DNA of 64,000 bases from Darksidea phi (Eukaryota > Ascomycota > Dothideomycetes > Pleosporales > Lentitheciaceae): contig JASJFT010000065.1 in NCBI GenBank assembly GCA_030770425.1, forward strand, positions 104,829 through 168,828, written 5' to 3'. The translations under genes were made by a program, and so were the position numbers. This document shows, piece after piece, positions 16,114 through 47,190 of the stretch (positions are counted from its first letter, which is position 1; every line of letters starts with the position of its first letter). Under the pieces are notes generated by a model. That model did no database searches. It was not told the origin of the DNA and saw nothing but the letters and a program-made list of their open reading frames with translations.

Positions 16114-16637
16114 GACATTAACTTGGAAGCGTATGGGCAGGAAAGATTTTCGGCTCTGTGAAAAGTTTGGCGATCTGTAATGGTGTGCGAGTGGGTGTCG
16201 TTCAAGGGAACTTTACACGCAAGTCTTAGTTATGGTTCGAGATGATGAAATTTCTGCTTGATGCGTTTTGACGGCACACGCTGTGCCATCCATTGGTTGC
16301 TTGTGCTATTTTATATCATGCTTTCGTCTGTACGTGTCCAGGACGGTATAGTATTCTAGAAGGAGCCGTAATGGTTCATTTTGGATGTTAGCCTTTTCAT
16401 TGGCATGTCTTCAGAATTATATGGTTGGCCCCACCCAAAACAGCCGGCGCTTAAGATAGCGGTCCAATCGTCGCCCAATAGTTACAGGGTCTTTGCGTTA
16501 CCGAGATCTGCCCCGCTCCGCACAAAAGACGACTAATTTGGCAACAAGGGCTTCCATGTCTTCTCTCTTGTACTCTTCTAAACCTGGTATATAATGTTAG
16601 TTATTATTCCGAATCTTCATATTCAATACAAACAACA
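16114..16637. other. Intergenic, DUF6594 gene 3' flank to tRNA
   Basis: No coding signal seen; holds the 3' flank of the DUF6594 gene and the AT-rich upstream flank of the tRNA gene. Confidence 0.5.
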
Positions 16638-16784
16638 TCCGATATGGTCTAGTGGCTAGGATTTGCCGCTCTCATCGCAGAGTAACTACACTTGTAGTGC
16701 CGGCAAGGCCCGGGTAAGTGACTCTAAGTCATTGCCTTGATCTATCCAACTAATTCCTGATAGGTTCGATTCCCGGTGTCGGAA
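16638..16784 (+). tRNA. tRNA-Glu(CUC) with a canonical intron plus a second, spliceosomal-like insertion in the T arm
   Basis: Removing two insertions leaves a 72-nt tRNA: acceptor TCCGATA paired with TGTCGGA, D arm GTCTAGTGGCTAGGAT, anticodon stem TGCCG/CGGCA, loop with anticodon CTC (16,671-16,673), variable AGGC, T arm CCGGG-TTCGATT-CCCGG, discriminator A. Insertion 1 (16,675-16,699, 25 nt) lies directly 3' of nt 37, the normal place for eukaryotic tRNA introns. Insertion 2 (16,714-16,763, 50 nt) lies at the T-stem/T-loop junction. It begins GTAAGT, has ACTAAT 10-15 nt before its end and ends TAG, exactly like protein-gene introns of this window. Box A (TGGTCTAGTGG) is intact, and box B (GGTTCGATTCC) is kept because the insertion ends in G. 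Whether a mature tRNA is made is not known. Confidence 0.85.
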
Positions 16785-16795
16785 TTCCAGTATAC

Positions 16796-16803
16796 TTTTT
16801 TTT
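16796..16803 (+). terminator. RNA polymerase III T-run terminator
   Basis: Eight consecutive T residues begin 12 nt after the discriminator base of the tRNA-Glu gene, the expected place for a Pol III terminator. Confidence 0.7.
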
Positions 16804-45932: not shown

Positions 45933-47190
45933 TCACTTGAACTCAGCAAACGCCAGTTCGTAAGCCAGCCCTAGCGTCAACCTCGCATGCTGAAGCATGT
46001 GATCGAAGCTCAGATACTCAATCTTGTCCTCAGTAGTGTGGATCTTGTTATCCGAATACTTGAAGTCGGACTCAATAACAAACGCAGACGGATAGCCGGC
46101 CTTGGACGCGCTGGCGTGATCGCTGCAAGCGTAGCCGCACTTGGTCAGAATGTACGGAATATCGCAGTACTCGGTAATGACCTCTTTGATGAATTCGGTA
46201 AGGCCGGGGTCGACGTAGTCGGTGATGACTCCAACAGACTCCGGCTCGCCTGCGTCGATGGTCTTTTGGACATAGCCAGTCATGTCTTGCTGCAGCATGG
46301 CTTTGACGTCCTTGCCATGCTTCTCGTATGACCGGAAGATGGCTTGGGAGCCGAGCAGACCGCCCTCCTCGGCAGAGTACCAATGGAACTCGACCGTGTT
46401 GGGTGCCTTGCCCTTGACAATGTCGTCCGACTTGAGCAGCACGCGGAGAGCCTCAAGAATTGTGACGGTGCCGCTGCCGTCGTCGTCGGCGCCGGGTGCG
46501 GCGAGGATGGAGGGAAGGAATAGGTTGATGCTGTCCTGGTGCGCGCCAATCACGACCGTCTTCTCGCTCTTGCCGGGAATGGTCGCAATGATGGACGACT
46601 GGCCCCATGGGTGGGAGAAGGCCTTGACCGAGGCGCCGTAGTCGAACGCTCCAGCCTTTGCCAGCGTGTCGTTGACCTGCCCCAGCAACCATGCCGACGA
46701 CTGAGCTCCATATGTTGACTTGTAGTAGCGAGTGTGGAAGGAGGTGAACGTCTCTAGGTGCTTGCGCATGTTGTTCTTCTGGAGTTGCTTGAGCAGCGGG
46801 CGGACAGTCTCGTTGTGGGCCGTCTTTGATGGAAACTCGACCTTGCGGACGCCATACTTGTCGCTGTTCAGAGCGCCGAGGTCTTGGGCATGTGTGATAT
46901 CGAAGAAGTTGATGCCCTCCTGCGAGCCCTGTTAGCCTGGAGTTCATGCTAGCACGAGGTGAGGTTTTCCGAGTTAGACCACCTTAAACAGCATAACATA
47001 CCCGTCGCAGCTCCCACTTCTCATCCTCGGTAATCCACCTTGTCTCCCCCGGCGCGAGCTCGATCAGGTACTCGTCCGGCTCAACGATCGTAGGCTGCGG
47101 GTCCTGTATGACGATCTGCGGGTCTTTCGGGTGGTGTATAGCTGCAGCAAGTGCCGCGGTGCACAACGGAAGCAATAGCGACGACTTCAT
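45933..47190 (-). CDS. LAP1: Secreted leucine aminopeptidase, M28 zinc metalloprotease
   Basis: Two exons (47002-47190, 45933-46928) over a 73-nt intron (donor GTATGT, branch GCTAAC) give 394 aa, the usual length of fungal Lap1 (about 380-390). Signal peptide [17 protein letters not shown], then an inhibitory propeptide ending before [11 protein letters not shown]. Zinc and catalytic residues typical of M28: VVIGAHQDS (His193), PGADDDGSG (Asp211-213), SAEEGGLLG (Glu250 catalytic, Glu251 ligand), QQDMTGY (Asp278) and KIHTTEDK (His360). Cys pair [20 protein letters not shown] matches the family disulphide region. Removes N-terminal residues from extracellular peptides for nitrogen supply. Frame intact. 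Confidence 0.93.

Follow-up and report, generated by a model that had tools for sequence, protein, structure and literature searches.

The window, by which we mean the whole 64,000-nt stretch of DNA analyzed here, carries on its forward strand a tRNA-Glu(CUC) gene at 16638..16784 that is interrupted by two introns, and the first-pass annotation was right to describe it so. Exon 1 (16638..16674, forward strand like all features of the gene), which covers tRNA positions 1–37 and includes the anticodon CTC, was delimited with ARAGORN and has the same sequence in both paralogs described below. It is followed by an ordinary 25-nt tRNA intron at position 37/38 (16675..16699; ARAGORN), which has counterparts of 30 and 25 nt in the paralogs L002 and L003 (ARAGORN), and by exon 2 (16700..16713; sequence and ARAGORN), which runs from position 38 to 52. 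A second, spliceosome-type intron of 50 nt (16714..16763) then interrupts the T stem at 52/53; the signals for which it had originally been singled out were all recovered, namely GTAAGT at its start, AACTAAT and a terminal TAG, with the predicted branch-point A at 16753, 10 nt from the intron end. The ends of this insert can slide among four equivalent placements, and the GT..AG placement was chosen. Exon 3 (16764..16784; sequence and ARAGORN) supplies the rest of the T arm, the 3′ acceptor strand and the discriminator.

The elements expected of a Pol III gene (box A, box B and a terminator) were all present in the sequence. What we take to be box A (TGGTCTAGTGGC, 16645..16656) is uninterrupted, and box B (GGTTCGATTCC, 16763..16773) is unbroken in the DNA, the final base of the insert being a G that stands in for G52, so that both boxes are intact in the way first proposed. 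A TATATAA motif about 45 nt upstream of the gene (16588..16594, forward strand) is a possible Pol III upstream TATA, and a run of eight T that begins 12 nt past the gene (16796..16803, forward strand) would serve as the Pol III terminator. ARAGORN reported no tRNA for the unspliced gene, either over the whole window with bacterial settings or in its 3-kb locus (L001) with a maximum intron length of 160 nt. After deletion of the 50-nt insert the same program read tRNA-Glu(CUC) with the 25-nt 37/38 intron, in agreement with the earlier statement that taking out the insert restores the T stem. A fold suggested for the insert, TGACT-CTA-AGTCA, does exist as a hairpin, but the insert shows no more structure than shuffled versions of itself (z −0.3).

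We then searched the genome (51.35 Mb in 477 contigs) for tRNA genes with similar inserts, a check that had been proposed, and found 12 genes with 13 inserts in all; these occupy eight types of site, the first at 25/26 and the last at 58/59. One protein of the window (45936..46931, minus strand) is 89–91% identical to proteins of Periconia digitata, Aaosphaeria arxii and Trematosphaeria pertusa and 95% identical to two others, and on the strength of this single protein we place the fungus in the Pleosporales. Of the 59 matches to Rfam RF00005 in the genome, 17 lie on contigs C304 and C417, taken here to be mitochondrial. Among the remaining 42, five were read by eye as tRNA genes with a similar insert: two Ala(AGC) genes, Ala-1 (C79, L056; insert at 52/53) and Ala-2 (C132, L061; 58/59), Gln(UUG) (C149; 53/54), initiator Met (C312, L058; 53/54) and Lys(UUU) (C436; 28/29). 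A second Glu(CUC) gene, Glu-2, with its insert at 52/53, the same site as in the window gene, was found by DNA similarity. The pattern GTAAGN{25,55}CTAAYN{3,20}TAGGTTCRANTC had three matches in 51 Mb, all of them tRNA genes, and none in a reversed control. A looser pattern that places CTAAY before the T loop was not enriched overall, since it had 29 matches vs. 32 in the reversed control. By eye and with ARAGORN, 11 of these 29 were tRNA genes, nine of them with an insert and five of those new, and the other 18 were not tRNA. The new genes were His (C16; 53/54), Glu(UUC) (C445; 51/52), Pro(UGG) (C467; 53/54), Ile(AAU) (C177; 25/26), for which the pattern gave the locus and the insert was seen by eye against the cloverleaf, and Leu(CAA) (C85, L091), whose locus likewise came from the pattern. 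This last gene contains three introns: a 28-nt intron at 37/38, an insert in the variable arm and an insert at 34/35, which splits the anticodon between C34 and A35 and which, like that of Ile, was recognized by eye. A CTGAY version of the pattern had 24 matches vs. 19 in its control, and the one match inspected of these 24 (L115) was by eye not a tRNA.

The Ala(AGC) genes form a trio of differing layouts. L061 (C132) has an insert in the T loop and no 37/38 intron, L056 (C79) has both a 37/38 intron and a T-stem insert, and the third gene, L043 (C429), has a 37/38 intron alone.

All 13 inserts were between 47 and 66 nt long and had a 5′ site of the form GTNNG. Eleven of the 5′ sites were GTAAGT (four), GTAAGC (two), GTACGT (two), GTATGT, GTGAGT and GTAGGT (one each), and two were weaker (GTTAGT and GTTAGA). 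A YTRAY branch site with its A 9–12 nt before the insert end was present in 13 of 13, as TACTAAC in three, and all ended in AG (TAG in eight, CAG in three, AAG in two). Only 31 of 400,000 random slices of the window, matched in length and with sliding allowed, fitted this signature, which is not due to chance. For the His, Glu(UUC) and Pro inserts and the Leu variable-arm insert the test is partly circular, because the search pattern included the branch site (CTAAY). The window insert was the starting point of the study. Apart from it, eight inserts were located independently of the signature (the five from RF00005, that of Glu-2 from DNA similarity, that of Ile and the 34/35 insert of Leu), and all eight fit. 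The first-pass annotation had also likened the window insert to the protein-gene introns of the window; nine putative mRNA introns that join open frames there are indeed alike (45–82 nt, branch distance 7–15), though the filter by which they were selected itself required GT, YAG and CTRAY. On sequence, the U2-type features (5′ GT consensus, branch site and 3′ AG) were found in all 13 inserts, and the reading that fits best is that they are ordinary U2-type spliceosomal introns. Folding of the 13 inserts revealed no excess structure (z −1.6 to 1.6). Group I and group II introns were considered and rejected, given a length of 47–66 nt vs. a catalytic core of hundreds of nucleotides and the finding that no Rfam family in the window exceeded its gathering score.

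The Glu(CUC) genes offer a comparison among close paralogs. When the 5′ part of the gene was searched with up to three mismatches allowed, the genome gave three matches, all exact, in answer to the earlier call for a count of Glu(CUC) genes: the window gene, a gene on C335 with both interruptions, and a gene on C198 with the 37/38 intron alone and no T-stem insert. All 72 of 72 exon bases are identical among the three, and in a 10-kb comparison the flanks beyond a short leader were unrelated. The two T-stem inserts share their site, GTAAG, CTAAT and TAG, and their cores are about as similar as shuffled sequence (z −0.2). With identical exons, unrelated insert cores and unrelated flanks, the signals and the exons appear to be kept and the rest to drift.

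Box B is affected to different degrees by the inserts in the T arm. GGTTCRANYCC is complete in the DNA of four genes with a T-arm insert, in the three 52/53 genes because the last G of the intron replaces G52. In Gln, His and Pro the sole change to box B is its first G to A, and GTTCRANNCC is contiguous across seven of the nine T-arm inserts. Box B is broken in Ala-2 (C132) and altered in initiator Met. Positions 14–24 of the initiator Met intron (L058, C312) hold a box-B-like TGTTCGATTCC, at a distance of 59 nt from where box A starts, and ARAGORN, which also called the unspliced initiator Met gene within its locus, placed the T arm inside this intron; the insertion alters the native box B of this gene. 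Among other Pol III genes, the 22 5S genes above the cut-off were 120–121 nt long and had no insert, in a search that an interrupted 5S gene could escape.

Removal of the inserts restored a tRNA reading by ARAGORN in 12 of the 12 insert-bearing genes. Of the bare unspliced genes, a tRNA was called in three (Ala C79, Ala C132 and Lys), with the intron or the T arm misplaced. The spliced Ala C79 and Pro sequences were miscalled as Arg ACG and Ser UGA because of where the program placed the 37/38 intron, and their anticodons were read by hand. Genome DNA searches with the spliced sequences, sensitive enough to detect the Ala and Ile paralogs at about 85–97% identity, found no uninterrupted nuclear gene for Lys(UUU), Gln(UUG), Glu(UUC), Pro(UGG) or Leu(CAA); mitochondrial genes for Lys(UUU), Gln(UUG) and Glu(UUC) are present. 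When the Lys(UUU) anticodon arm was used as a pattern with as many as two mismatches tolerated, the genome gave 28 matches vs. 11 in a control: one exact match, which is the insert-bearing gene itself, three with one mismatch and 24 with two; two of the 27 non-exact matches, both with one mismatch (C48 and C57), were inspected and neither is a tRNA. The tRNA census is not exhaustive, because Val(UAC) (C74) and Pro(AGG) (C201) did not appear among the RF00005 matches and were found with tRNA sequences of other organisms in a search for missing isotypes, and what supports the sole-copy claims is therefore DNA similarity together with one pattern. That search turned up just these two genes, which have 37/38 introns only and no spliceosome-type insert. 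By the decoding rules, AAA, CAA and GAA codons require a tRNA with U34, and the insert-bearing Lys(UUU), Gln(UUG) and Glu(UUC) genes should therefore be essential. Since the insert-bearing gene is the only nuclear copy found for each of the three, it is unlikely that such genes are dead redundant copies.

Our main reading, to which we assign a probability of roughly 0.87 from the sequence, is that the window gene is a Pol III tRNA gene that has acquired an ordinary U2-type spliceosomal intron, and that the spliceosome removes it, by a route shared by at least 12 genes. Pol III would transcribe the window gene from box A and from a box B completed by the final G of the intron, and would stop at the T run. 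The spliceosome would then take the 50-nt intron from the nuclear precursor, whereupon the T arm could form, and tRNA endonuclease and ligase would subsequently remove the 37/38 intron. RNase P and tRNase Z need the T arm, and we therefore place the spliceosomal step in the nucleus, ahead of end trimming. In Leu(CAA) the 34/35 intron should go first, because the anticodon arm that the endonuclease reads is absent before its removal. The same route would apply to the other insert-bearing genes, some of which apparently supply an essential tRNA on their own. From the sequences with their signals, from the intactness of the exons and from the gene copies detected, we infer that Pol III transcribes the genes, that the spliceosome removes the inserts, and in what order the steps occur. 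A further proposition, which we consider probable, is that the spliceosome is an obligatory tRNA maturation factor in this fungal lineage: it would be needed for the sole-source Lys(UUU), Gln(UUG) and Glu(UUC), two unrelated splicing machines would act in order on single pre-tRNAs, the anticodon of Leu(CAA) would be assembled across an intron, and introns would contribute part of the Pol III promoter, as the final G of box B or as the box-B-like element of initiator Met.

Spliceosomal introns are as a rule linked to Pol II (PMC8527467), and the loci could instead be transcribed by Pol II and spliced within longer RNAs, with the tRNA cut out later. This is improbable given that runs of at least five T start 5 to 15 nt past 12 of the 12 insert-bearing genes, that TATA-like hexamers lie at −33 to −57 in the same 12 (both counts being uncontrolled), and that TTTT occurs in none of the 13 inserts, where 2.5 would be expected in shuffles (P 0.05). 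It is also conceivable, if quite improbable, that the tRNA endonuclease (Sen complex) cuts the inserts as non-canonical tRNA introns and that their GT/AG likeness is incidental. Several insert-bearing genes also have canonical 37/38 introns, from which the Sen machinery is presumably present, and non-canonical tRNA introns are documented in Cyanidioschyzon merolae and in nucleomorphs according to a review (PMC4090602). Such cutting would leave the full spliceosomal signature of all 13 inserts, including the branch distance, as a coincidence. A bulge-helix-bulge scan recovered the motif at 0 of 13 inserts, but likewise at 0 of 5 of the 37/38 introns in these genes, and as built it is useless because ordinary introns fail it too.

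The suggestion that the insert might be either introner-like or an ordinary spliceosomal intron has fared differently in its two parts, the ordinary intron reading extending to 11 further genes and the introner reading meeting no clear family resemblance among the 13 insert cores. Recent spread by introner-like mobile elements would agree with the many sites, with the similar lengths of 47–66 nt and with the top score among 78 core pairs, z 3.6 for Ala-1 and Lys. The mean over the 78 pairs, however, was z 0.3, and even the Glu pair at a shared site did not stand out. Nor did copies of the insert emerge from the genome: a similarity search with the window gene, the sole genome-wide query that included an insert, matched just the three Glu genes. 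As neither this search nor the core comparison revealed near-identical copies, an introner family is disfavored; recent spread is very unlikely, and an old or degenerate introner origin may apply. Least credible is the idea that the insert-bearing genes are dead or decoys while intact genes do the work, one form of which, a dead redundant copy, had been raised for the window gene. Glu(CUC), initiator Met, Ile(AAU), Ala(AGC) and His do each possess one or more copies free of this type of insert. Against it stand the tRNA read in every gene after removal, the Glu(CUC) exons that are identical in three genes with unrelated flanks (gene conversion being an alternative cause of this likeness), and the five isoacceptors, Lys(UUU), Gln(UUG) and Glu(UUC) among them, for which only an insert-bearing nuclear gene was found, although the assembly or the searches could miss an uninterrupted one. 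An intron removed by the spliceosome from a working Pol III gene remains the reading that we prefer.

Splicing of tRNA and of mRNA in eukaryotes is regarded as separate. The inserts are a known class of intron, with precedents in other non-mRNA genes, in a class of gene for which we know of no report of spliceosomal introns. Among the papers listed by literature searches, which mostly did not cover subscription papers and preprints, none was on spliceosomal introns in tRNA genes, and passages of four papers (PMC13149111, PMC12730881, PMC11782384 and PMC4033280) made no mention of them. The Pol III-made U6 snRNA gene of Schizosaccharomyces pombe has an mRNA-type intron (PMC10484740) and is like the present genes in being a Pol III-transcribed small RNA gene with a spliceosomal intron; its host is a splicing RNA, whereas the present introns lie in numerous tRNA genes, and no intron interrupts the U6 gene that was identified in this genome. 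Spliceosomal introns also occur in the nuclear rDNA of lichen-forming ascomycetes (PMC8527467), short as here (57 bp in the case of one moved to yeast) and likewise in a structural RNA that Pol II does not make, but the gene is transcribed by Pol I and encodes rRNA, as opposed to Pol III and tRNA. The earlier premise that eukaryotic tRNA introns are confined to 37/38 has known exceptions in algae and nucleomorphs: in C. merolae and in nucleomorphs, as in this genome, introns lie outside 37/38 and several can occur per gene (PMC4090602). The same review attributes those introns to the tRNA splicing endonuclease or does not commit itself to a mechanism, and it gives a length of 3–24 nt for Guillardia, compared with the 47–66 nt, GT, branch site and AG of the inserts described here. 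Canonical 37/38 introns are present in this genome too, and the second class differs from them in position and in signals.

If the main reading is true, a filamentous fungus needs the spliceosome for its supply of tRNA, and splicing extends to Pol III transcripts that are short and lack long exons. Insertions could then be functional in the D, the anticodon or the T arm, where the review supposes them to mark pseudogenes (PMC4090602). Gene finders can miss such tRNAs, ARAGORN having been blank on 9 of the 12 bare unspliced genes; for tRNAscan-SE 2.0, a search for non-canonical introns is described for archaeal tRNAs (PMC8450103). The genes would also constitute a natural test of spliceosomal intron gain in non-coding genes and of the tolerance of Pol III promoters to introns.

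Several other tRNA-like sequences were seen during the genome searches. L054, L057 and L062 (on C187, C425 and C158, respectively) resemble tRNA-Ser(GGA) and encode a CCA-like end, and L054 and L057 share by eye a tail after the tRNA, which suggests a tRNA-headed repeat. L028 (C51) and L053 (C119) are tRNA-like, with T loops of merely about 3–5 nt by eye, and L060 (C29) appears by eye to be a broken tRNA with two tandem T-arm-like pieces.
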